This document shows positions 18,707 through 35,267 of a stretch of DNA of 63,981 bases, one piece after another. This DNA comes from Fimbriimonadaceae bacterium (GTDB lineage: Bacteria; Armatimonadota; Fimbriimonadia; Fimbriimonadales; Fimbriimonadaceae). Position 1 is the first letter of the stretch; each line of letters starts with the position of its first letter. A model generated the notes under the pieces. It did not search any database, had not been told where the DNA came from, and worked only from the letters and a program-made list of their open reading frames with translations. The position numbers and the translations under genes are program-made. The stretch lies in assembly GCA_019638835.1 (NCBI GenBank), contig JAHBTC010000002.1, forward strand, positions 1 to 63,981. The letters are read 5' to 3'.

Positions 18707-20253
18707 CGAAGTACTCGTGGATCGCGGAACAACGACGCATATACACGGAGAATGCGGGTGTGATCCGTGATTTCCGGTCACAAATGCGTACGTTCCGTCC
18801 CTTCTTCGGCTGGATCGCTTACCTTGGGATTGTCTTTCTTGTTACCGGGATCAGTTATTACGCGATTAGTTCGACTTCAAACTTGCAGGCCGCTCAACTT
18901 CAGGATCGGCTCGGCCAACTCTTTATCGTTCTAGTCTGGCTCCTCGGGATCCTTGTCTCGATGACGACTCCGGCTCTTACGATATCCTCCATCATTGCAG
19001 AGTTCGAGCGCGGTTCGATTGACTTGGTCATGTCGGCCCCGGTTCATCCCAAGTACTTATTGGTCGGCAAGCTTCTTAGCGCCTATCGCTACGCTTGGTT
19101 GCTCTTGATCCTCGCGCTTCCGTTCGCAGCTACTGGCGTTGTCATGGGTGGTTTCACCTATATGCAGGTGCTGCAAATTTTCTTCTGCATGTCCCTTCAA
19201 GCCTTGATCGCAGGGGCCGTAGGTTTGGCGGTTTCAACGCTGACCCGTAAGACCGTGAACGCGTTGATGCAGACGTACGCGATCCTTTTTTTGGGGTCGC
19301 TGGTTCTGTCGGCATTTGGGTTGACGACGATTCTGTCGGGGGCGATGTCAGGAACTCGTGAGGCGCCTTTCTTCGGTCTGCTGGTTCCTGGAATGTGCTT
19401 GTTTGCGCTGGATACGTTCACCCGAATAGGTAGCTGGGAAGTTCCCAACTGGATATTGGCGACCGTGTTCACCCTTGGAGTTGTTCGTTTGTTGCTACTG
19501 GGCGCGGCTTCGGGACTTCAATTCACCCTGAATAAGGAGATCATCGGGCTGAGGATTGGTGGGCTCATTGCCGCATTCCTCGTCATGATCCTTCTGAGTT
19601 CCGGGGGGTCGGCCGCATTTGCGGGTCTTGGTCCTGGAATGTCCGTGGTGACAGGTCAGCAACTCGCGGCCTCGTTTGTCGTGATCACGGGGCTCGGATT
19701 GCTGGCTATCATGAACTACCTGTCCTGCTGGCAGTTCGTGGGTGACCGCAAGTATCTGAGCAATGGCTTTTTCGATCCGAGACTTATGTTGCGCGGTACC
19801 CCAGCCGGCAACGTGCCCTACATGTTGGCCCTCTTCATGGCGGCTCTCGGCGGCTATGTGACTGGCGGGATACTTGGTCGAATGAACCTGGACGGTAGTT
19901 TTTGGCTGCACATGACCTGGGCCCCTGCGTTTTGGTTGTTCTTTCTGGGATTGGGATGGTGGTCTTCGGTGTTGAACAAAGTGAATGCACAGGCGGCACG
20001 ACGCTTGCAGGGTGCATTTCTTGTAATCATGCTCGCCGTATCTTCGGTTGCGCTTAGCTTTGTTCAGGCCAACACAATGGGGATGGAGATTATTTCGGTC
20101 TACCATCCGCTTGCTGGCGCAGTGACGAGCGAGGCAAACGTTGCGATCATTCACACGAGCCTGTATGCGGCAACCGGCGCAGTCTTGCTCCTTACAGCCG
20201 AAATGAAGCGTAGAGAAATCATCAGGAGTTCATATGGCAGTCCTCTCCCTTGA
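18703..20253 (+). CDS. ABC-2 type transporter permease, large
   Basis: A 516-residue membrane protein with about twelve hydrophobic segments, roughly twice the length of the first permease. EFERGSIDLVMSAPVHPKYLLVGKLL at residues about 100-125 is the ABC-2 coupling-helix region. The second half may be a separate membrane module. The TTG start overlaps the ATPase stop by 4 bases. Its end overlaps the next gene by 20 bases. Confidence 0.85.
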   Translation: MTKYSWIAEQRRIYTENAGVIRDFRSQMRTFRPFFGWIAYLGIVFLVTGISYYAISSTSNLQAAQLQDRLGQLFIVLVWLLGILVSMTTPALTISSIIAEFERGSIDLVMSAPVHPKYLLVGKLLSAYRYAWLLLILALPFAATGVVMGGFTYMQVLQIFFCMSLQALIAGAVGLAVSTLTRKTVNALMQTYAILFLGSLVLSAFGLTTILSGAMSGTREAPFFGLLVPGMCLFALDTFTRIGSWEVPNWILATVFTLGVVRLLLLGAASGLQFTLNKEIIGLRIGGLIAAFLVMILLSSGGSAAFAGLGPGMSVVTGQQLAASFVVITGLGLLAIMNYLSCWQFVGDRKYLSNGFFDPRLMLRGTPAGNVPYMLALFMAALGGYVTGGILGRMNLDGSFWLHMTWAPAFWLFFLGLGWWSSVLNKVNAQAARRLQGAFLVIMLAVSSVALSFVQANTMGMEIISVYHPLAGAVTSEANVAIIHTSLYAATGAVLLLTAEMKRREIIRSSYGSPLP

Positions 20254-22297
20254 CCTGAAAGCCTTTCAACGGCGTATTCGACTCGTTCGCGCATGGAGAA
20301 CGATGGCGTGGGGTGGAACTGCGGGGGCTGGGCTCGGTTCGGTCGCACTAGGTCTTGACCTTTGGACCAATGTCATCGTGCCCGCAAACCTTGGTGCCGG
20401 ATTGGTGTTAGGCGGGCTGTTCGCAGGAACTCTCATTGGTTTCATATTGCCGGTAGCTGCGCGCGACGTGATGCGAAGCGTAGACCGTCGGGCGGGCCTG
20501 AAAGATCGATTGACCACTGCCCTCGATTTGGCGGATTCGGCAGACGAGATGGCGGACGCACAGCGGCGTGACGCTGATCGAGCCGCCCAATCGGTTCATC
20601 CGAAGGGGGTCTATCCATTCCGATGGAGCCGGACGCATACCATTTGGGTAATTGCGACAGTAATTGCGATGTCATTCCAAGTCATGGCGATGACGGGGGT
20701 CGGTCGTCTCGGTAGCCAACTTGAGCAAAAGGCGGACCTCGCAAGTTCAGCAGTCCAAGTGCGCCGTATTGAACGGGAACTTATGAACCGTTCCGCGCAG
20801 TTACCGCCGACGAAGATCGAAGAGCAACTCGCCGCTGGGATGGCTTCGCTCGCCGAGAAGCTTGAAAAAGGGAAGATTAGTCGCGAAGACGCGCTCAAAG
20901 AAGCGGACAAACTCGCCCAAAAGGCGGAAGACGCAGCGAAAGAGCGGGCTTCAGTTGCCGGTACTCACCTTGACAATGCTGAGAACGCGGCCCAGCAAGC
21001 CCAGCAACGGGCGTTCAAGGAAGCTGGGCTCCGAGAAGACCAGGCTCGCAAAATGGACCTTAGTTCAGAGCAGCGAGAGCTCCTTAACCGTTTGGTGGAC
21101 GCGGAAGAGTTTGAGAATCCGGTCAGTACGTTCGATCCGGCAACATTGCGGGCGGCGGGGATGCAGAATGCCGACCAAAACCTGATGGGGATGAATCGGG
21201 AGCAAACGGAACAGGTTCGTCAAAGTCTCCAGAACCAGATGAACGAGTTGCAGGCACGCATGAACGAAGGTGCAATGGACTCCACGCAACGACAGCAGTT
21301 GGAACAGCAGGTTGAGGATCTAAAGCTTAGTCCCGAGGCAAGACAGACCCTCGAACAGATGCAGCAACCGGGTCAATCAGCCGAGCAGATGGCTGACCTC
21401 GCTCAACGACTTCAGGAACTCGCACCAAACATGAGTCAAGAGATGCAACAGGCCCTTCAGCAGATGGCTCAGCAATCAATGTCTCCGGAACAGATGCAAG
21501 CAATGTCTGAAATGTTGCAGCAGGCACTTGAGAACAACACCCTGAATCAGGAACAGATGGAGCAGTTGCAACAGCAGTTGGAGCAACAGATGACCCCTGA
21601 GCAAATGCAACAAGCCCAACAGCAGATGCAACAGATGCAGCAACTGATGGAGTCACTGGCGGCGAATCAAGATGTGAGGCAGGCACTCCAACAAGCGATG
21701 CAGTCTGACCAAATGCAACGCGTGGCGGAGGCGATGCAGGGAATGCGTGAAGCCCAACAAAACCTACAAGAAGGACAAGGCATGTCTCAGCAACAACAAG
21801 AGCAGTTGCAGCAGCAGATTGAACAAGCAGCGAGCGGGATGAACGACCCGCAACTGCGTGAGCAGTTCCGGCAACAGATGCAGCAGGCCATGGAACAGAT
21901 GCAGGCGGGTACCGGCAATTTGCAGGCGGCCCAGCAGATGATGCAAGCCCTTGGGCAACAAGCAATGCGGGACGCGATGCAAAGCGCTCGGGAAGGGAAT
22001 GACAACCAAACTGGCGATTTGCGAGGGAATATCACCCGCGACACAATGCCGTGGGAACCGGGTGGCACGACTGTCCGCACGGGTATTCGGGGTGAACGCC
22101 GCGAGTCCGATGCAAATGAAGACTACGTTGAGGTGCGGGCACCCGCGCAGAACAACGGACCGAGCAGAGTGCCGTATCAGCAGGTCTTGCCTCAATACCG
22201 CCGAGAAGCAGAGCGCTCGACGACTGGGAACCGTTTGCCCAAGGAGCGACGGGACCGAATTCGCGAGTATTACGACTCGATTCAAGGGAAGAAATGA
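20234..22297 (+). CDS. Membrane protein with long Gln/Met-rich coiled coil (DUF4175-like)
   Basis: A 687-residue protein. Three hydrophobic segments lie within the first 160 residues (about 19-40, 50-75 and 137-157). A Lys/Glu/Ala coiled coil follows, and then from about residue 320 to 590 a striking low-complexity coiled-coil tract dominated by Gln, Met, Glu and Ala with repeated QQMQQ, EQMQQ and PEQMQ units. The tail is polar and ends EYYDSIQGKK. The ATG at 20234 has AGGAG 7 bases upstream and lies inside the permease gene end. Its position just before MoxR-DUF58-VWA genes matches DUF4175-type proteins of PVC-group bacteria. Function is not known; the tract suggests an oligomeric scaffold. 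Confidence 0.75.
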   Translation: MAVLSLDLKAFQRRIRLVRAWRTMAWGGTAGAGLGSVALGLDLWTNVIVPANLGAGLVLGGLFAGTLIGFILPVAARDVMRSVDRRAGLKDRLTTALDLADSADEMADAQRRDADRAAQSVHPKGVYPFRWSRTHTIWVIATVIAMSFQVMAMTGVGRLGSQLEQKADLASSAVQVRRIERELMNRSAQLPPTKIEEQLAAGMASLAEKLEKGKISREDALKEADKLAQKAEDAAKERASVAGTHLDNAENAAQQAQQRAFKEAGLREDQARKMDLSSEQRELLNRLVDAEEFENPVSTFDPATLRAAGMQNADQNLMGMNREQTEQVRQSLQNQMNELQARMNEGAMDSTQRQQLEQQVEDLKLSPEARQTLEQMQQPGQSAEQMADLAQRLQELAPNMSQEMQQALQQMAQQSMSPEQMQAMSEMLQQALENNTLNQEQMEQLQQQLEQQMTPEQMQQAQQQMQQMQQLMESLAANQDVRQALQQAMQSDQMQRVAEAMQGMREAQQNLQEGQGMSQQQQEQLQQQIEQAASGMNDPQLREQFRQQMQQAMEQMQAGTGNLQAAQQMMQALGQQAMRDAMQSAREGNDNQTGDLRGNITRDTMPWEPGGTTVRTGIRGERRESDANEDYVEVRAPAQNNGPSRVPYQQVLPQYRREAERSTTGNRLPKERRDRIREYYDSIQGKK

Positions 22298-23298
22298 AGG
22301 GTCAAGAAGCAGCGGAGTGGTTCCGTAATACCGTCAGCAAAGTTCGGACTGAGATTGCGAAAGTCATCGTCGGGCAGGACGAGGTCGTTGAAGGAGTCCT
22401 AGTGGGATTAGCCGCCAATGGCCACATTCTGCTCGAGGGGATGCCGGGACTTGGCAAGACCCTTTTGGTCAAGACTCTCGGTGAATGTCTTGGACTGGAA
22501 GTCCGCCGAATCCAATTCACGCCTGACCTGATGCCTGCCGATGTGACCGGAACAAACGTATTAGCGAGCGACGATGCGGGTGGTCGCCGATTCGAGTTCC
22601 GTCCCGGCCCAATCTTCGCGAATCTCGTGCTCGCTGACGAAATCAACCGGGCAACGCCAAAAACGCAAAGTGCAATGCTGGAGGCAATGCAGGAACGATC
22701 TATCACGGTGGGCGGTCACATGCATACTCTGGATGAGCCGTTTCTTGTCATGGCCACACAGAACCCGGTGGAGCAAGAAGGTACTTATCCGCTACCGGAG
22801 GCCCAACTTGACCGTTTCTTGCTCAAAGTCACGGTGCCATTCCTTGATCGTGGAGGGCTCGCCGAGGTCGTGCGTCGAACCACGGGAACGGCCACGAGTT
22901 CAGCGAGTCAAGTCGCTTCGCGCGAAGACGTATTGCAACTGCGAGAAGTTGTGAAGGAGGTTCCGGTTGCCGACGACGTATTGCAATACGCCCTGACTCT
23001 GATCTTGGCGACTCATCCCGAATCCAAAGAGGCTCCAGATGAGACTAAGAAGTACGTTCGCTATGGTTCGTCTCCTCGCGGGGCGCAAGCCATCGTCACC
23101 ACGGCAAAGGTTTACGCCTTGATGGACGGTCGCTACAACGTATCCAAGGACGACTTGAAGCGAGCGGCGATGCCGGCGCTGCGACACCGAATTCTATTGA
23201 ACTTTGAAGCGGAAGCGGACGGATTGAACACCGACCGGATCGTTCGTCACGTACTGTTGCAGGCCGATCTCGCAGATAAGGACCCGATCCACGCCTAA
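22294..23298 (+). CDS. MoxR-family AAA+ ATPase
   Basis: A 334-residue AAA+ ATPase. Walker A GMPGLGKT, the MoxR hallmark RIQFTPDLMPADVTGTNVL, Walker B LADEINRA followed by TPKTQSAMLEAMQE, sensor-1 ATQNPVEQEGTYPLPEAQLD and the C-terminal lid SSPRGAQAIVTTAKVYALM. MoxR proteins are chaperone-like ATPases that act with VWA proteins in metal insertion or complex assembly. ATGA overlap with the upstream gene; DUF58 follows after 15 bases. Confidence 0.95.
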   Translation: MKGQEAAEWFRNTVSKVRTEIAKVIVGQDEVVEGVLVGLAANGHILLEGMPGLGKTLLVKTLGECLGLEVRRIQFTPDLMPADVTGTNVLASDDAGGRRFEFRPGPIFANLVLADEINRATPKTQSAMLEAMQERSITVGGHMHTLDEPFLVMATQNPVEQEGTYPLPEAQLDRFLLKVTVPFLDRGGLAEVVRRTTGTATSSASQVASREDVLQLREVVKEVPVADDVLQYALTLILATHPESKEAPDETKKYVRYGSSPRGAQAIVTTAKVYALMDGRYNVSKDDLKRAAMPALRHRILLNFEAEADGLNTDRIVRHVLLQADLADKDPIHA

Positions 23299-23313: not shown

Positions 23314-24186
23314 GTGTCGGTAACCCTCTCCCCCGCAGAACTTCGTTCGGTGCAAGGATTACGCCTTGTCCCTCGCCGAACGCGGACAGGGCACCACCGG
23401 GGTGAGCGGATCACGAAACGAAAAGGGATTAGTCTTGAGTTCGCGGATCACCGAGACTACGTGGAAGGTGACGATTTACGCCACCTTGACTGGAACGTCC
23501 TTGCAAGGTTAGGTCAGCCGGTCGTGAAAACCTATCAGGACGAAGAAGATCTCTCGGTTTACCTTTTGGTGGACACGACTGCATCTCTTGATTTCGGTGA
23601 GCCCGCGAAGTATGTGTTGGCCCGAAAACTCGCGGCAGCCGTAGCAATGGTAGCGCTCGCGACTGGGGACGCTGTTCGTCCATACCCCCTTGGATCTACT
23701 GCGAAGACAGTACCGCTTTATCGTGGGATGGCGAACTTCGGGCGGGTGATGGCACAAATCAACTCATACCCAAGGCAACAGAAATCAAGTGTCTCTGAGT
23801 CGCTTCGACAGTTTGCGCGGGTAGATTTGCCACCCGGAGTCGTCGTCATTCTCAGTGATGGTCTTGATCCCGAATTCCCCGAAGCACTCCGCGCCGTTGC
23901 GTCCAGAGGACACGAGCCTTGGCTCCTGACCGTGCTTTCACGCAATGAGTTGGAACCCGACCTTGAAGGTGAGTTGAAACTTCTAGATGCTGAGTCCAAC
24001 GAGGCGGTGGAAGTAACGGCAAATCGCTCTGTCGTCGAGGAGTATCTCAACAATCTAGATGTCCACCTGAAATCGCTTCGGGACGCTTGCGTTCGCGGCG
24101 GAGGTCGATTCGCTCACACGGCTAGCGATACGCCATTGGAGAGCGTGATCCACCGGGCCCTGCGTAAAGAGGGGTGGGTGGCGTGA
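23314..24186 (+). CDS. DUF58 domain protein (degenerate VWA-like)
   Basis: A 290-residue protein from GTG 23314 (GGGGAC upstream). RTGHHRGERITKRKGISLEF is followed by HRDYVEGDDLRHLDWNVLAR, the DUF58 signature (D-Y-x-x-G-D-D-x-R-x-I-D-W), then VYLLVDTTASLDFG, a VWA-like segment with DTTAS in place of DxSxS. It is the standard partner of MoxR. Its end overlaps the BatA-type gene by 4 bases (GTGA) if that gene starts at 24183. Confidence 0.92.
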   Translation: MSVTLSPAELRSVQGLRLVPRRTRTGHHRGERITKRKGISLEFADHRDYVEGDDLRHLDWNVLARLGQPVVKTYQDEEDLSVYLLVDTTASLDFGEPAKYVLARKLAAAVAMVALATGDAVRPYPLGSTAKTVPLYRGMANFGRVMAQINSYPRQQKSSVSESLRQFARVDLPPGVVVILSDGLDPEFPEALRAVASRGHEPWLLTVLSRNELEPDLEGELKLLDAESNEAVEVTANRSVVEEYLNNLDVHLKSLRDACVRGGGRFAHTASDTPLESVIHRALRKEGWVA

Positions 24187-26003
24187 GTTGGTTGAATCCA
24201 GGAGCAGCCCTATGGGCGATTCCCGCCGTCGGAATCATCGTCTTGCTCTACATTCTCCGGATGTTGAGGCGCGATTTGATCGTTCCCGCAACCTTCCTTT
24301 GGCCGGCGAGGACCGAAGAGATTCGAGCGAACGCTCCTTTCCAAAAGCTCAAGTTCAACTGGCTGATGATGGTCCAGATCCTTGCCGCGCTTCTACTGGT
24401 CGCGGCCTTGATGCGACCACAATCTCGCCAAAGCGGTCTGGGCGGTGGCGCAACGGTCATCATTCTTGATTCAAGCGCGAGTATGGGAGCAACCGATGTG
24501 GCCCCTTCTCGCTTTGCCGAAGCGACCTCACGCATCGGATCGCTGATTGATTCGGCTGAGCCCGGCGCACCCGTGGCTCTCATTGAAGCCGGGGCGACGC
24601 CTCGCGTTGTCTTTCCGATGAGCAGTGACCCGGCCGCACAACGCCGTGCGCTCGAAACAGTGAGCACAACCGACGCGGCAAGTGACATGGGAGAATCGCT
24701 TAGGCTTGCCGCCGAGTTGGTGAATCAGCAGGCTGGCGGACGAATCATTGTCTTCACCGACGGCGTTTTTGGAGCGGTGGAAGACTTTGCTCCTGGGCAG
24801 GCAAAAGTCGAAGTGCAACTTGTCGGTGAACGCAACAAGAACCTTGCGATTCAGGCACTCGGCTCGACTCGTACTGCTCGGGGTCAATTGCTCTTCGCTC
24901 GGGTGAAAAATGTGGGTACCGAGCCCATGCGAGCGCAACTCACAATGCGGGCAGATAACCAGGTGGTGGATGCGTCTTTCAAAGAACTCTCGCCAGGTGA
25001 AGAGTGGCCCCAAACCGTTTCGGTGCCGCCCGACGCGACGCTCTTCACCGCCGACCTCGCCGATGAAGATGATTTTCGGGCCGACAATCATCGGGCTGCC
25101 CTCGCCGCCGACTCGCAGCAACTTCGCGTGTTACTTGTCTCAACGGGGAATCTCTTCCTAGAGAGGGCGATCGCTCTTGACCCTCGCGTAACCCTTGACA
25201 TGGCCCCTGCGGTGCCGGATCAAGAGAGAGCAGAGACACCCGGAGCAGGGATCTACGACATCGTGGTGTTTGACGCCGGGACGGCGGTTCCCGTCAAAGC
25301 AAAAGGGGTGCTCGCATTTGGCGCAAGTGGTGCCTTGCCCGCAAAGGTCGGTGCCGTCAAGGAGACTCCCGTATGGAGTGGTTCGGAGTCGAGCCCCTTC
25401 ACCGCCGGAGTAGATTGGAATGGCCTCTATGTCGGACGTGCTCTGGCGTTGACTCCTGCGCCCACGAGCCGGGTTTTAGCTCGCTTTGAGTCCGGCCCCG
25501 CAGTAGTGATTACCGAGGGATCCCAGACTGTGATCCAGGTTGCTTTCGGGACGATGCAGAGCGACATGCCTCTGCGCCCCGCATTCCCCATTTTCATTGC
25601 AAATGTATTGGATGGATTAGCGGGTGAGACCGTTCAAGACCAAATCGTGATTCCGGCCGGGAGGTCGTTCTCTCTTCCGGCTCCTGAGGGTTCCACCGCA
25701 AGGTTAGTTTCGGGGCAAGACGCGACGGAACTTGAGGAGACGGACGGTCGATTTGTCGTGAGTAGTCTCAAAAGGGTTGGTGAGTCCCAACTTGAGTTAG
25801 GCGATCGTAAGATTTCAATCCATGTGAATCTCGCCGACAGCACTGAATCGCTTATTCAGCCTCGCCGTGAGTTGAATTTGGGCGCGTCGGCAGTGAACGC
25901 TTCCGGGCAGTTAACGCGTTGGAGCGAAGCATGGCGATGGGTTCTCCTCGCATTGCTGGGCGTGTTCGGTTTGGAGTGGTGGTTGTACGCCCGGAGGTCA
26001 TAG
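24183..26003 (+). CDS. BatA/VWA domain membrane protein
   Basis: 606 residues from GTG 24183, which overlaps the DUF58 stop in GTGA; a GTG three codons earlier is possible. The N-terminal BatA module (LNPGAALWAIPAVGIIVLLY helix, FLWPARTEE, then a second helix near residue 60) leads into a VWA domain with MIDAS DSSAS (TVIILDSSASMGA). Extracytoplasmic beta-rich domains follow, with a final transmembrane helix (WRWVLLALLGVFGLEWWLYA). BatA-type proteins work with MoxR in the envelope; targets are unknown. Confidence 0.88.
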   Translation: MSWLNPGAALWAIPAVGIIVLLYILRMLRRDLIVPATFLWPARTEEIRANAPFQKLKFNWLMMVQILAALLLVAALMRPQSRQSGLGGGATVIILDSSASMGATDVAPSRFAEATSRIGSLIDSAEPGAPVALIEAGATPRVVFPMSSDPAAQRRALETVSTTDAASDMGESLRLAAELVNQQAGGRIIVFTDGVFGAVEDFAPGQAKVEVQLVGERNKNLAIQALGSTRTARGQLLFARVKNVGTEPMRAQLTMRADNQVVDASFKELSPGEEWPQTVSVPPDATLFTADLADEDDFRADNHRAALAADSQQLRVLLVSTGNLFLERAIALDPRVTLDMAPAVPDQERAETPGAGIYDIVVFDAGTAVPVKAKGVLAFGASGALPAKVGAVKETPVWSGSESSPFTAGVDWNGLYVGRALALTPAPTSRVLARFESGPAVVITEGSQTVIQVAFGTMQSDMPLRPAFPIFIANVLDGLAGETVQDQIVIPAGRSFSLPAPEGSTARLVSGQDATELEETDGRFVVSSLKRVGESQLELGDRKISIHVNLADSTESLIQPRRELNLGASAVNASGQLTRWSEAWRWVLLALLGVFGLEWWLYARRS

Positions 26004-26006
26004 CGC

Positions 26007-28835
26007 ATGCGTTTCTTGGCCCCCATGTATCTGCTTCTGCTCCCCATCCTTGGGTTGGCATTGGCTTGGTCTTGGCGTCGTGTAGGTGGCCTTGCCGCCG
26101 GAAGAAAGCGTTGGGCTTTCATCTTGCGAACGATGGGCTTGATTGCCATTTGCGTTGCCCTTGCGGGCCCTCAGTGGAGGCAGCCAAACCGAGGGCAAAC
26201 CGTGGTGTTTGTCGTCGATCGCTCGGACAGTATCCCTGAGACCGATCGCCGCCGCGCAGAGCAGTTCGTCCGCGATGCCGTAAACCGGCTTGGTCCGGAT
26301 GACTTGGCCGCAGTCGTAACCTTTGGCGGTCGGCCCACGATTGAGTCCTTGCCTGCCGGAAAGCGGTCGGTCGGTACCTTCAGTGCAGAAGTAAAGGGGA
26401 ACGCTTCGGACTTATCGGCGGCAATTCGATTAGGGTCGGCGCTTTATCCTGAGGGTCGATCCCGTCGAATGGTGCTGCTTACGGATGGAAATGAGACGGC
26501 CGGCGACGCCATCCAAGCGGCGCGGGTCGCTTCGAGTCAGGAGATCCAAGTGGACACCGTTCCGCTTGGTACACGTCAAGGTACCGCCGAAGCTTGGATC
26601 GTTCAAGTTGATGTACCGAGCGAACGACAAGCGGATGAACCATTTGGTGTAGCCGTCGAAGTAGAGTCTACAGTGGCTCAGAAAGCCATCCTAACCCTTG
26701 ACCGTAACGGCACAGTTGTAGATCGCGCACAAGTTGACCTCCGGGAGGGCCGAAGCCGCTTTGTTTTTGATCAACGAATCACCGAGCCGGGCTTCTTACG
26801 GTACCGCGTAACTCTGGAACCTACGGAAGACGCCGATGTTCGGAACAACTTGGGTGCGGGTTTCGTGGCGGTTCGAGACCGATCGCGAGTATTAGTGTTG
26901 CAGAGCCCAGAAACTCCCGGCGAGTTGGGGACTGCGCTTCGCGCCAGTGGGCTGGCGGTAACAGTTCGCGGGCCGGAGGGTATCCCAGTCCGCTCCGAGG
27001 AATTGCAAGCCTACGACGCGGTGATCCTCAACGACACGAACGCGAAGTACTGGGAGACGCGGTCCATGGAGTTGCTACGGGGGGCGGTCCGTGAGACGGG
27101 CATCGGCCTTGTGATGGTGGGGGGAGAGAATAGTTTCCTCCCTGGGGGTTGGTACCGAACGCCGATCGAAGAAGCGCTTCCGATCTCCATGGATGTCCGC
27201 CAAAGGAAGACATTCCCCAGTACGTCCATCCTCATCGTGATTGATGCCAGCGGCTCGATGTCGGCCACGGAAGACGGGGTTGTCAAGTTGCAGTTGGCAG
27301 CAAAAGCTGCCGAGGACTCGACGCGCCTCCTCGCACCGGTGGATCGGTTGGGAGTTGCCGGAAGCACAGATCGTATCGAACTTGTCGCGCCGATTGTCGA
27401 ACTCAAAGACAAGGATGAGGTGATCCGAAACATCCGGACGATTCGACCTGGTGGCGGCGGCATCTATGTCGAGCCGTCCATGCAGTTCGCAGCGGAAGAA
27501 CTGGCAAAACAAAACACGAAGGTTCGTCACTTGATTTTGCTCGCCGACGGTAGCGACGCCGATTCCCATGGCACGAGTTTGGAGATCGCCCAAAAAATGC
27601 GCGCCGATAAGATCACCACTTCGGTCGTTGCGATCGGAGATGGCAAGGACGTTTCATTTCTGCAGCAACTTGCGAAGGCAGGTGGTGGAAATTTCTATCT
27701 GGTGACTAAAGCGGGGAAGCTGCCCGCCATTTTTACTCAGGACGTTGCGATGATGTCTCGATCTGCCATAGAAGAGGCAGTATTCGTTCCCAAGCAGGTC
27801 GGCGGAGACGAGGCTCTCAACGGCATCAGCGAGATGCCAGCCCTGCTTGCCTATTGCCTCGCAGACGCGCGACCGCTCGCTCGCGTGTCATTGGCTTCCC
27901 CCAAAGATGACCCCATCCTGGCCCAATGGCAATACGGTCTCGGCACGAGTTACGCGTTTATGAGCGACGCCCAAAGCAAATGGGCGCGTCGCTGGGTGGG
28001 TTGGGACGGCTTTGGAAGTTTCTGGAGCCAACTCGCGCGGAATGTCGTTCGTCGAGGGACGAGTAACAACTATGCAATGCGGGTCCGGCAGGATGGCCCT
28101 CAGTCGCGCGTTGAGATTACGGCTACCGACAACGCAGGCAATCCCATTCAGTTACAGCCAAGCGATGTCAACGTAAGCGGCCCAGACGGAAAGCCGGTCG
28201 AAGTGACTCTTGACCAAACCGCGCCGGGGGTTTACGAGGCGCAAGTGGCAAGCGGCGATATCGGAAGTTATCTCGTCACGGTCAAAGAAGGTAGTAGCGA
28301 GTCTCCCAGGGTGGCGACATCGGGTTTCAGCGTGCCTTATCCGCCGGAATACCGTTCGATGACAACCAATACCGCTCTCTTAGCGCGCGTGTTAGAGGTT
28401 GCCGAGGGGCAATCGCTTGATGCTCCCGAAGATGCGCTTCGGCCCCGGTCAAGGCCCGGCGAAAGTGTCCGCGACATCTGGGCTTGGTTTGTGGCGTTTG
28501 CGCTTGCTCTGTTTCCCATTGACATCGCGGTACGGAGGCTCACTGTTCCGTGGGCGCAGATTTTCGCCCGATTCCGGCGTGAGGAACCAGAATCAAGTGC
28601 GGACACGAGGATTGAGCGATTGCGCGCCGCAAAGGATCGCTTACCCAAGCGACCGGACGATGCACCCGTTGCGCGAATCTACGTGTCACCAAATGAGAAT
28701 TCGGATACGGCAGGGAAGGAGCCAGCAGCCGTCGTACCCCCATCTCCAGCCTCAAATCTATCTGGAAGTCTGGGCGCCGAGTTGATTAAGCGGCGCAAAG
28801 GGGCGTCCGCCGAGAATTCAAAGGACAACGAATAG
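26007..28835 (+). CDS. Large membrane protein with two VWA domains and GATase-like segment
   Basis: 942 residues; GGAGGT precedes the ATG. Two N-terminal helices (residues about 5-20 and 33-50), a first VWA domain with DRSDS (VVFVVDRSDSIPETD), a beta domain, a GATase-1-like segment around residues 310-390 (SEELQAYDAVILNDTN, GLVMVGGENSFLPGGWY), then a second VWA domain with a full MIDAS DASGS (IVIDASGSMSA). A C-terminal helix (IWAWFVAFALALFPIDIAV) and a Pro-rich cytosolic tail follow. This order is known from PVC and Armatimonadota proteins beside MoxR operons. Likely a metal-dependent binding scaffold; ligand unknown. Confidence 0.88.
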   Translation: MRFLAPMYLLLLPILGLALAWSWRRVGGLAAGRKRWAFILRTMGLIAICVALAGPQWRQPNRGQTVVFVVDRSDSIPETDRRRAEQFVRDAVNRLGPDDLAAVVTFGGRPTIESLPAGKRSVGTFSAEVKGNASDLSAAIRLGSALYPEGRSRRMVLLTDGNETAGDAIQAARVASSQEIQVDTVPLGTRQGTAEAWIVQVDVPSERQADEPFGVAVEVESTVAQKAILTLDRNGTVVDRAQVDLREGRSRFVFDQRITEPGFLRYRVTLEPTEDADVRNNLGAGFVAVRDRSRVLVLQSPETPGELGTALRASGLAVTVRGPEGIPVRSEELQAYDAVILNDTNAKYWETRSMELLRGAVRETGIGLVMVGGENSFLPGGWYRTPIEEALPISMDVRQRKTFPSTSILIVIDASGSMSATEDGVVKLQLAAKAAEDSTRLLAPVDRLGVAGSTDRIELVAPIVELKDKDEVIRNIRTIRPGGGGIYVEPSMQFAAEELAKQNTKVRHLILLADGSDADSHGTSLEIAQKMRADKITTSVVAIGDGKDVSFLQQLAKAGGGNFYLVTKAGKLPAIFTQDVAMMSRSAIEEAVFVPKQVGGDEALNGISEMPALLAYCLADARPLARVSLASPKDDPILAQWQYGLGTSYAFMSDAQSKWARRWVGWDGFGSFWSQLARNVVRRGTSNNYAMRVRQDGPQSRVEITATDNAGNPIQLQPSDVNVSGPDGKPVEVTLDQTAPGVYEAQVASGDIGSYLVTVKEGSSESPRVATSGFSVPYPPEYRSMTTNTALLARVLEVAEGQSLDAPEDALRPRSRPGESVRDIWAWFVAFALALFPIDIAVRRLTVPWAQIFARFRREEPESSADTRIERLRAAKDRLPKRPDDAPVARIYVSPNENSDTAGKEPAAVVPPSPASNLSGSLGAELIKRRKGASAENSKDNE

Positions 28836-28892
28836 GCAAACCCTAAGAAACCGCATGAGGTCTGCCGAAAATTCCATGGAGGAAGAGTGTCG

Positions 28893-29861
28893 ATGGAATT
28901 ACCTGAACTCACCGAATGCGCGCCCGACTCGCCTCGATTTGATCGCTTGCGTTTACTCCTAAGCCAACTGCGAACTACCTGTGACGAGATTGAGTCAGAG
29001 ATTCAACTCTTGAGCGAGGCAGCCGAGACACACTTCACCGATGCTTTCACGGCTCGCGAGGAGCCTTCGAACGATTCCGAACCCACTGACGACGTGGCGG
29101 AGATGTTGGATAGCAATCTTATGGCGGAGATGATCGCGAATCAACTCCCAGATCCAGTCGATTCCACGTCTGAATCGGAGGCTAAAGACGAGCAAGAAGG
29201 TGTCGCGCTTGAACTGCCCACCGAGGAGTCTGCCTTATTGAATCTCTCGGAAAACGAACTTGGCAGTGTCTTGGAGTCGTTCACCGATGAACCGGCAGAA
29301 GTTTCCTCCGAGGCGAGCGTAGAAGCTGCCCAGGCATTGCGGGCAGAAAGTGAGCCTATAACCGGAGTGAGTTCCGAACTAGAGCCCGAAAACGAGTCTG
29401 TCAATATCAGCGCGATGTTAGAGAGCCGCACTCCAACAGAGGCTGTTGTCCCGCCGGCAGAAGGTGGCACCGTACTCAGCGAGGATGAGTTGCTTGCGAT
29501 GCTTTCCGAAGCCGAGAGCCGAGCGGAAGATATCGATGGGGAAGAAGGGGACGAAGAGTCGCAACTGACCGTTATCGAAGGTGGCAACTCGGAAGGCAAC
29601 GACGCGAATCAGCCTGTAACGTTTGATGAGACACTTGTCGCTTCTGTCCCGGCAGTCCTCGCTTTGGCTGCCCTCGCGGTACCCGTGCGAAAAGATGGAG
29701 ATACGCTTGTTCTAGCGGTCGCTGAACCCATCGATCCGGTGGCAATCAGCAATATCGAATCTCATCTTGGTTCTTCGGTTGCTACCGAACCCCGCCCGAT
29801 GGTTGAAATTCTGGAACTACTACGAGCGATTTACAAAGATGGCAAGGTTCCGGTCGCCTAA
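28893..29861 (+). CDS. Very acidic protein with C-terminal GspE N-terminal-like (T2SSE_N) domain
   Basis: 322 residues from the ATG at 28893; GGAGGAAG ends 7 bases before it, which favours it over the GTG two codons earlier. The first 240 residues are extremely acidic (Glu, Asp, Ser, Ala, Leu), probably disordered with short helices such as EMIANQL. The last 75 residues, VASVPAVLALAALAVPVRKD, GDTLVLAVAEPIDPVAISNI and RPMVEILELLRAIY, match the domain found at the N-terminus of type II secretion/type IV pilus ATPases. No ATPase domain follows and the c-di-GMP-binding RLGxLL...Q motif of MshEN is not seen. It may be a decoy or adaptor for a pilus ATPase (inference). Confidence 0.72.
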   Translation: MELPELTECAPDSPRFDRLRLLLSQLRTTCDEIESEIQLLSEAAETHFTDAFTAREEPSNDSEPTDDVAEMLDSNLMAEMIANQLPDPVDSTSESEAKDEQEGVALELPTEESALLNLSENELGSVLESFTDEPAEVSSEASVEAAQALRAESEPITGVSSELEPENESVNISAMLESRTPTEAVVPPAEGGTVLSEDELLAMLSEAESRAEDIDGEEGDEESQLTVIEGGNSEGNDANQPVTFDETLVASVPAVLALAALAVPVRKDGDTLVLAVAEPIDPVAISNIESHLGSSVATEPRPMVEILELLRAIYKDGKVPVA

Positions 29862-29876
29862 CCATTCGGGAGTATT

Positions 29877-30689
29877 GTGAGCACGCGCATCATTTCAGTG
29901 ACAAGTGGCAAGGGAGGGACCGGCAAGTCCGTCGTGGCCGCAAATCTAGCTTGGGCTCTGGCTTGCGCAGGAAAGTCGACCCTGTTGATCGACGCCGATA
30001 CGGGCCTAGCGAACCAAGACATCCTGCTCGGGGTTGAGCCGGTGGGATCTCTCGTCCATGCAATTCGCACCGAGACGGGATGGAAGGAGAACTCAGTCAG
30101 CCCCAGAGAGAACCTAGACGTGATCGCGGGTACCGAACCTTTTCAGGAGTCGGCAACGCTTGATCCTCTGGTTCTAAGCAGCCACCTTGGTCGAATTGTC
30201 TCTCAGGCTCCTCATGAATTTGTGATCTTGGATACGCCAAGCGGACTCAGTCCGCTAACGGTGATGTTCGCTTCCTTCGCGCAAGTCTCTTTGCTCGTGA
30301 TCTCACCCGAGCCGACGAGCCTTGCCGATGGCTTTCGGCTGATCGCAGCGGTGGAGGGCGCAGATGTACTGGCGGACTGGAAAGTCTGTCTCAACATGGC
30401 GCCGCGTACTGCCATAGCAAGCGACCTCTTGCGTCGCTTTCGACAAGCGGTTGCGGGAGAGTATTCCGTTCAGACGGAAGAATGGGGATCGATTCCCGTT
30501 GACCCTGCCGTACTGAAGGCGGTACGTCAGCGTGAGCCGTTGCTCACCGCTGCTCCGAAGTCTCCTGCTGCGAACGCCATTGCGTCCTTGGCTTCGCGTT
30601 GCGCTAACTGGACGCCTTCCGAAGACGAATCAACTTCGATCCTTGACACACTGAGAACGGCAGGATTGGAAGATAAGAAGGCCGCGTAA
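29877..30689 (+). CDS. MinD/ParA-like ATPase (FlhG-like)
   Basis: 270 residues from GTG 29877 (GGGAG upstream). The deviant Walker A VTSGKGGTGKSVVAANLAWA with its signature Lys, TLLIDADTGLANQDILLG, and FVILDTPSGLSPLTVMF (Walker B region) define the MinD/FlhG/ParA class. The C-terminus carries no recognisable membrane-targeting amphipathic helix, as far as I can see. Members position pili, flagella, chemoreceptors or DNA. Downstream of a GspE-N-like protein, a role in pilus or secretion machine placement is plausible. Last gene of the array; a terminator follows. Confidence 0.88.
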   Translation: MSTRIISVTSGKGGTGKSVVAANLAWALACAGKSTLLIDADTGLANQDILLGVEPVGSLVHAIRTETGWKENSVSPRENLDVIAGTEPFQESATLDPLVLSSHLGRIVSQAPHEFVILDTPSGLSPLTVMFASFAQVSLLVISPEPTSLADGFRLIAAVEGADVLADWKVCLNMAPRTAIASDLLRRFRQAVAGEYSVQTEEWGSIPVDPAVLKAVRQREPLLTAAPKSPAANAIASLASRCANWTPSEDESTSILDTLRTAGLEDKKAA

Positions 30690-34550: not shown

Positions 34551-35267
34551 ATGATTCGGCGTTCTCAGGTATCGCGCTACGCACCTCGTAGAATTGCGTT
34601 CACATTGATTGAGTTGCTTGTTGTGATCGCAATCATTGCGATCCTCGCAGCAATTCTCTTTCCTGTTTTTTCGCGGGCCAAAGCGGCGGCAAAGAAGGCG
34701 GAGTCCGCAAACGAATTCCGGCAAATCGGTGTGGCGATGTACCTTTACCTCTCAGATCATGATGACCGGATGCCCGATCGTCGAGACTTGAAGACGGACC
34801 TTCCCGGTGGCTACAAGCCTTGGACAGGCTGGCCCCCGTCTGACCCTCGAACGGGATGGGCAAGGGAAGTGCTGGGTGTGTACGCAAAGGGGACGTTGTT
34901 TGCGTTTCCGGCGACTAAGTCGGCATTTGGAGACGCGGTTCAGGTGCAGCAACAGACGTCAAACGGCGAGAATGCATTGGGATGGATGTGGCGTTTCGAT
35001 CGACCCGATGATCCGATTCCCGGCGATAACTTTTGGGGCAAATCACCGGAACTGGCGACTGAACATCTGATAGCCGAAAACAACCCATTTATCGGGGTGC
35101 CAACGGGAGTCGCCGACGTTGAACTTGCGGTAGAGCCTTACTTCCCCCGAACCGTGAGTCCAAGTCCGCTCAACCTCCGGGGCCGCGCCGTTCATTTTGG
35201 TGGTCGAAACCGCCTCTTTCTCGATGGCCACGTCAAGTTCTTGCGAGACGTCCGGACCGACCCTTAG
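34551..35267 (+). CDS. Prepilin-like protein (H-X9-DG), divergent from the diguanylate cyclase
   Basis: A 238-residue protein. A basic 15-residue leader (MIRRSQVSRYAPRRI) precedes [20 protein letters not shown], the prepilin cleavage site and hydrophobic helix. The C-terminal motif is complete: HFGGRNRLFLDGH, His and Asp-Gly separated by nine residues. Only 46 bases separate its start from that of the divergent cyclase gene, leaving no room for a riboswitch. Its stop overlaps the convergent glycosyltransferase stop by 4 bases (TTAG). The start could in principle be slightly further in, but the leader is plausible as drawn. Confidence 0.87.
   Translation: MIRRSQVSRYAPRRIAFTLIELLVVIAIIAILAAILFPVFSRAKAAAKKAESANEFRQIGVAMYLYLSDHDDRMPDRRDLKTDLPGGYKPWTGWPPSDPRTGWAREVLGVYAKGTLFAFPATKSAFGDAVQVQQQTSNGENALGWMWRFDRPDDPIPGDNFWGKSPELATEHLIAENNPFIGVPTGVADVELAVEPYFPRTVSPSPLNLRGRAVHFGGRNRLFLDGHVKFLRDVRTDP

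Follow-up and report, generated by a model that had tools for sequence, protein, structure and literature searches.

An acidic protein ending in an MshEN_C domain and its conserved pairing with a MinD/FlhG-like ATPase in Fimbriimonadales

The window analyzed here is a stretch of 63,981 nucleotides from a Fimbriimonadaceae bacterium (GenBank assembly GCA_019638835.1, contig JAHBTC010000002.1, positions 1 to 63,981 of the forward strand). It carries a row of genes in which a MoxR-type ATPase, a DUF58 protein and two vWA proteins, the second of which we term vWA2, precede an acidic protein, here called the adaptor, and a MinD/FlhG-like ATPase (Table 1). The adaptor gene lies 57 bases 3' of the vWA2 gene and 15 bases 5' of the ATPase gene. 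A preliminary description of this DNA, made from its letters alone, had placed a diguanylate cyclase and a prepilin-like gene close by, and both were found. Neighbors were identified by Pfam in the window only, and elsewhere by their similarity to the window genes.

Table 1. Genes of the adaptor locus and features within the adaptor, in window positions.
Feature	Position	Strand	Remarks
687-aa protein	20234..22297	+	First gene of the row examined; no Pfam match at E 0.001
MoxR-type AAA+ ATPase	22294..23298	+	Same row; Pfam
DUF58 protein	23314..24186	+	Same row; Pfam
BatA-like vWA protein	24174..26003	+	Same row; Pfam
vWA + glutamine-amidotransferase-like protein (vWA2)	26007..28835	+	Upstream gene, often conserved beside the pair; Pfam
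Acidic MshEN_C adaptor protein, 322 aa	28893..29861	+	ATG start; alternative in-frame GTG start at 28887
N-terminal long helix, adaptor residues 14-55	28932..29057	+	AlphaFold2; pLDDT block means 96 and 93 in residues 21-40
Weak FliM-like peptide LSENELGSVL, residues 118-127	29244..29273	+	Low-confidence predicted helix 120-129; outside the counting regex
FliM/FliY EIDALL-like peptide LSEDELLAML, residues 195-204	29475..29504	+	Overlaps predicted helix 197-214
MshEN_C / ND1 domain, adaptor residues 241-314	29613..29834	+	Pfam PF05157, hhalign, structural alignment to 5htl
MinD/FlhG-like ATPase partner, 270 aa	29877..30689	+	Deviant Walker A GKGGTGKS
Multi-PAS GGDEF protein (diguanylate cyclase), 1235 aa	30815-34522	-	Between the pair and the prepilin-like gene
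Prepilin-like gene	34551-35267		

The adaptor has a pI of 4.05, with 75 D+E against 15 K+R in the whole chain and 52 D/E against 4 K/R in residues 56-240. An AlphaFold2 model computed with nine orthologues reached a mean pLDDT of 62.3 and a pTM of 0.30 over the entire chain; the linker is of low confidence and includes short helices such as 120-129 and 197-214, while residues 251-310 form a confident alpha/beta domain (block means 90-95). For the predicted N-terminal helix, the structural matches listed were long helices of unrelated complexes only. The early account of about 240 highly acidic residues ahead of the domain thus stands as to acidity, although residues 14-55 are a confident helix outside the disordered acidic part.

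A Pfam scan of the adaptor gave MshEN (PF05157) as its sole match, on residues 245-297, where its score of 33.8 bits exceeds the curated cut-off (23.1). By hhalign, 13 orthologous domains align at 97.7% probability, over 72 columns, to MshEN stretches taken from four further ORFs of the genome, which are 579-623 aa long and of GspE/PilB type as judged by length and by the sequence of one. Moreover, the domain superposes on residues 71-145 of MshE (5htl; VIA-align) with a Z of 10.6 and an rmsd of 1.7 over 74 residues, and also on Thermus PilF GSPII-B and Xanthomonas PilB ND1; P8, A12, L16, P19, P34 and Y69 of its core are invariant in 13 sequences of the window's type, hereafter type I. These results confirm that the adaptor ends in an N-terminal-type domain of GspE/PilB/MshE, namely the C-terminal half of MshEN (MshEN_C/ND1). 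A GspE N-terminal-like domain had been proposed at this C-terminus, to be abandoned if a profile search gave no such match; the match was obtained, and what had been described as the N-terminal domain of secretion/pilus ATPases is its MshEN_C half, the rest of MshEN being absent. It had also been stated that no ATPase follows, and indeed just 8 residues remain in the ORF beyond the domain, the next gene being the MinD-like one at 29877.

Two other explanations were discarded. A chance domain match is ruled out by the Pfam score, the structural superposition and hhalign; the gene is not a broken PilB either, since its orthologues end at the same place.

According to the available portion of PMC5013675, c-di-GMP binding by MshE relies on MshEN_N (residues 1-64) with its two motifs of 24 residues each, whereas its MshEN_C contributes one dispensable contact. 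The 24-residue RLGxx... motif, relaxed or strict, was found nowhere in the window adaptor, which rules out c-di-GMP binding via MshEN motifs there, and even the relaxed form was found in no type I protein (13 examined) and in no fused protein (7 examined). At least one motif copy is present in the upstream protein in 20 of the 43 MinD-like cases treated below, and two copies in 11. The window protein is the docking half without the sensor half, a half that it may have lost rather than never possessed.

By profile, the type I adaptor occurs in 25 of 291 genomes of the phylum, all in one family (f1). This count comprises 24 genomes at E <= 2.2e-21 plus one (G146) at 1.1e-16, the E-value line having been chosen by us; if the window genome's own paralogue (2.6e-18) is set aside, what follows are four-domain paralogues and ORFs of PilB length, at 5e-16 and weaker. 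Named relatives belong to Armatimonadota/Fimbriimonadales. Full-length identity among type I proteins is low, at 23-33% to the window protein (alignment A4), and the window's genus lacks a basic C-terminal tail that most relatives have. Both features speak for the adaptor being a degenerate remnant, an MshEN protein minus its sensor half that drifts and is retained only by its operon. That explanation is very improbable in our judgment, as the domain core is conserved (the invariant residues given above), the protein is found in those 25 genomes of one family, and the linker peptides described below recur in otherwise diverged linkers. Of note, the adaptor ORF at L148:12768-13610 (Uphvl-Ar1) has 281 aa against 629 aa in the near-identical locus L144, and is probably broken or mis-sequenced.

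To look at the association from the side of the ATPase, 61 genomes (own included) were searched with the window MinD-like protein at E <= 1e-15, yielding 44 matches in 35 genomes, of which 43 were classed, the one at G008:C1:2049159 being left out as it falls outside the fetched regions. MshEN_C was found in the upstream gene of 33 of these related MinD/FlhG-like ATPases and fused in the same chain in 7, using a profile built from type I domains in three search rounds on fetched regions; the three with neither belong to G021, G029 and G030. From the adaptor side, 12 other type I regions were searched with a MinD profile built from the pairs themselves, and in 11 of them a MinD-like ORF adjoins the adaptor; the neighbor in G016 is only a weak match (E 2.3e-9), and none was found in the region of G015. 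The fused MshEN_C-MinD protein of G003 aligns co-linearly over both window genes (29604-30605, query 27-384 of 412, with an intervening stop), which makes a good case for joint action of the two products.

Upstream partners take four forms: acidic type I proteins, short full MshEN proteins, MshEN plus a kinase-like region (a label given by sequence appearance, Pfam returning MshEN alone for the one such protein scanned) and fusions. Of 14 genomes from other phyla, 9 gave MinD-like matches; in this small set, whose flanks are short, MshEN_C was seen at none of the 12 loci retrieved from the nine. Our results show that MshEN_C and the MinD-like ATPase form a conserved pair, sometimes a fusion; the earlier remark that the adaptor sits with a MinD-like ATPase is thereby extended to 40 of 43 cases as seen from the ATPase. 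This conservation of the pairing and the FliM-like peptides reported below are additional to that description.

Other MshEN_C proteins were observed in the window genome. One is an acidic protein of 930-948 aa (G000:C153:8230-11019, also L052:8230-11019) with two MshEN_C stretches by Pfam and four by eye; a similar protein exists in both congeners, the FliM-like regex used below finds no match in it, and its gene adjoins one that we take to be PhoU-like. Another (G000:C122, L087:6323-7810) is a vWA-domain protein with a C-terminal MshEN_C, a second vWA-MshEN_C link in this genome. Several upstream partners (e.g. L050, L039, L054, L055) carry short basic amphipathic C-terminal tails such as SLLDKVKLLFRRSS and FWRRLFGKRAA, which resemble membrane-targeting helices.

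The partner ATPase belongs to the MinD/ParA superfamily, its SGKGGTGKS agreeing with the deviant Walker A pattern KGGxGK[ST]. It matches Pfam PF10609 with 58.5 bits (cut-off 27.1) and stays below the curated cut-offs of the MinD families (90.8 vs 212.9 bits for TIGR01968, 112.6 vs 201.75 for TIGR01969); its best solved relatives in the PDB are FleN/FlhG, with 105.6 and 84.6 bits. The N-terminal DQAxxLR activator helix of FlhG/FleN, as given in the part of PMC12826062 at hand, is absent from the partner ATPase, whose N-terminus reads VSTRIISVTSGKGG. In one congener (G001, Uphvl-Ar2; L128:13286-14143) the MinD-like gene is split over two frames, representing a frameshift, a pseudogene or a sequencing error.

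FlhF was matched at 1e-30 in 14 of the 61 genomes, 13 of them among the 14 genomes of family f2, and in none of the 37 family f1 genomes searched, the window genome included. As a side observation, MinD-like matches at 1e-15 are distributed the other way, being found in none of those 14 family f2 genomes and in 27 of the 37 of family f1. FliM is present in the window genome, as it is in 55 of the 61 (own included); with FliM and no FlhF match in the window genome, a flagellar role is unproven.

The linkers of type I proteins contain recurrent short peptides, for example ILSEDEIAALL and MSDDEIQQLM, or VLSEDELLAML in the window, where the predicted helix over LSEDELLAML has block means of 70-82. 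They resemble the N-termini of local FliM proteins (ILSQAEIEALL, with 28 of 30 proteins yielding a motif; LSQAEIESLM in the window genome's own FliM). A FliM-like regex, composed after the sequences had been inspected, gave 22 matches over the 5,012 aa that the 13 type I linkers make up, where shuffling predicts 0.04, and 11 of the 13 proteins had at least one. Eight held-out orthologues (2,528 aa) gave 18 matches, with 0.01 expected, spread over 7 of the 8. This held-out set is without L127, L128 and L137 (the proteins of G002, G001 and G031) and includes the near-identical pairs L144/L148 and L153/L165, with L148 only a partial row, so that the number of independent matches is nearer 13 than 18. 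Among 717 other ORFs picked mechanically (250,123 aa), the same regex matched 5 times, one match being FliM itself; 33 acidic ORFs with 10,777 aa in total gave none. There was no match in the fused and c-di-GMP-type partners, hence the pairing as such does not need the peptides.

The regex and BLOSUM scoring were adopted after a FliM PSSM proved too stiff (28 near-identical FliM N-termini), the best score of the window protein being attained there by 81 of 1000 shuffles. Under the fairer BLOSUM62 scoring, which compares each linker with the consensus of local FliM proteins, the best stretch is matched by <=12 of 2000 shuffles for 7 of the 13 linkers; the best of the window, VLSEDELLAMLSE, was equalled by 27 and that of G016 by 62 of 2000, and G034, G031, G023 and G015 were unremarkable (646-1947 of 2000). 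Judged by these sequence comparisons, the family of FliM-like peptides in type I linkers is real, and its identity with EIDALL is likely.

EIDALL of FliM/FliY is the CheY-P site in the available text of PMC9126983, and similar peptides recurring in type I linkers might bind phosphorylated CheY in the same manner, coupling receptor signals to the ATPase as a CheY-P sink or chemotaxis link. FliM, present in those 55 genomes including that of the window, would be in keeping with this; nevertheless it is found both with and without type I adaptors, so there is no special co-occurrence, and we consider such a role distinctly unlikely.

The other ligand to be considered is the ATPase itself. FliY binds FlhG through its N-terminal 36 residues, which are both necessary and sufficient for this; on the side of FlhG, K177, R207 and F215 are needed, one place printing R277 (PMC12327844, in the portion available). 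To place these residues we tried offsets from -12 to 12, just one of which agrees with all three letters. The corresponding positions read A, R and E in the window ATPase, Q/K/A in two congeners and E/A/Q in G011; of the 8 listed ATPases of type I, 5 retain both K and F, and among 42 aligned homologues (a table which leaves out one of two G026 sequences) the lysine is kept in 32 and the phenylalanine in 28. Two of the three FliY-binding residues being lost in the window's genus, the putative step from peptide to ATPase is weakened there, and this loss, as read from the alignment, is the main result against it in that genus.

We also examined how far the gene neighborhood is conserved. In the 12 other type I regions, a set unconditioned on vWA2, vWA2 is adjacent in 4 (G001, G002, G011 and G031), and about 7 kb off in 2 (G005 and G017); in the remaining 6, which include two contigs of ~7 kb, no vWA2 was found. 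The named loci were fetched through the vWA2 alignment, which means that gene order there is conditioned on vWA2: out of 80 such loci, 10 have adaptor and ATPase, three of these ten being genomes already in the earlier set, while L131 has only a weak adaptor match and the match at L186 is a 587-aa ORF of PilB length. In 8 of the ten the adaptor directly follows vWA2, and in L129 and L130 it lies ~6 kb further; MoxR, DUF58 and vWA precede it in 9, L127 beginning inside the row. A prepilin-like gene homologous to that of the window is near the pair in 4 of the 12 regions (G001, G002, G008 and G011), with the order of cyclase and prepilin-like gene kept in both congeners and no cyclase beside the pair in G008 and G011. 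Partial cyclase matches occur just 3' of the pair in L132, L144 and L148, and there may be a looser link of the pair to GGDEF/PAS proteins.

The prepilin-like gene in those four regions bears on the proposal, made in the preliminary description, that the adaptor competes with or recruits the pilus ATPase. In such a scheme its MshEN_C head would fill the PilM/PilZ-type site on which PilB ND1 docks, and the MinD-like ATPase would time this. The four MshEN-bearing ORFs of PilB/GspE length in the genome also favor it, and one of them stands in what we take to be a PilM/N/O-like gene row. The adaptor domain moreover matches PilB/GspE ND1, and because the ND1/MshEN_C surface is the docking site of GspL/EpsL (PilM-family) and PilZ in known systems (PMC8389850, available portion), pilus competition keeps a minor share of the probability; we hold it to be unlikely, though less so than the CheY-P sink. 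No pilus-assembly genes were seen beside the pair by Pfam labels in the window, a weak argument, and the recurrent partner is a MinD-like ATPase. An adaptor role agrees with the conserved pairing, then, while the part concerning the pilus ATPase finds no direct support.

The explanation that we favor, to which we give an even chance, is that the protein is an adaptor coupling its MinD-like ATPase to an envelope machine, and that it derives from a c-di-GMP-gated pair. It would act as adaptor or scaffold for the ATPase encoded directly 3'; the ancestral pair would have been a c-di-GMP-gated MinD-type switch, of which the window's subtype may have become c-di-GMP-independent. The long acidic linker could serve as a flexible arm bearing short amphipathic helices of FliM-like sequence; these would hold the ATPase in the way that FlhG is held by the N-termini of FliY/FliM, or else a CheY-like protein. 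The MshEN_C head might dock on the envelope machine, possibly a pilus platform or the neighboring vWA/MoxR system, so that the ATPase cycle would place or license it.

More tentatively, and with less confidence than in the coupling role itself, the pair may represent an undescribed two-protein switch of Fimbriimonadales in which MshEN and a MinD-type ATPase set the placement or number of a surface machine; many copies would be c-di-GMP-gated, and the window's subtype, without the gate, would use FliM-mimic peptides, often repeated, on an acidic arm, to be read by the ATPase or CheY like a flagellar C-ring. MinD-type ATPases place flagella, pili and other cargo, and how each of them learns its cargo and timing is an open question. 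Such a switch, if true, would connect pili, flagella and the MoxR-vWA system, and the pair, one branch of which lacks the sensor half and carries peptides like those of the flagellar switch, offers a way to test how a second messenger may control a positioning ATPase and how short peptides may decide the choice of partner. The parts are known; the pairing of MshEN with a MinD-like ATPase, and their combination, were not met in the literature searched, the coverage of which leaves most subscription journals and bioRxiv preprints outside.

Among known systems, the FleN/MinD-type ATPases linked to type IV pili in archaeal T4P loci are likewise MinD-like regulators, with no MshEN_C partner described in the available portion of PMC4858521. 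FlhG/FleN (YlxH) is closest to the partner ATPase in the PDB, and the linker peptides resemble local FliM N-termini; in contrast to FlhG/FleN, the partner ATPase is without the DQAxxLR helix, has FliY-binding residues partly lost in the window and comes from a family with no FlhF match (1e-30) in 37 genomes searched. Compared with the FliM/FliY ligand, the window-type peptides reside in another protein and are often repeated. The MshEN domain of Vibrio MshE (PF05157, 5htl) corresponds to the adaptor in its MshEN_C half, while the adaptor is without MshEN_N, its two c-di-GMP motifs and the trailing ATPase. ND1 of PilB/GspE (7lko, 4pht, 2bh1) has the same fold, although the adaptor domain is free of the motor ATPase, lacks ND2 and is C-terminal on an acidic arm. 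Finally, TadZ/CpaE, which consists of a receiver-like domain and a MinD ATPase and places Tad pili, shares by description the arrangement of a small N-terminal docking domain before, or fused to, a MinD-type ATPase, the docking domain in our case being MshEN_C instead of receiver-like.
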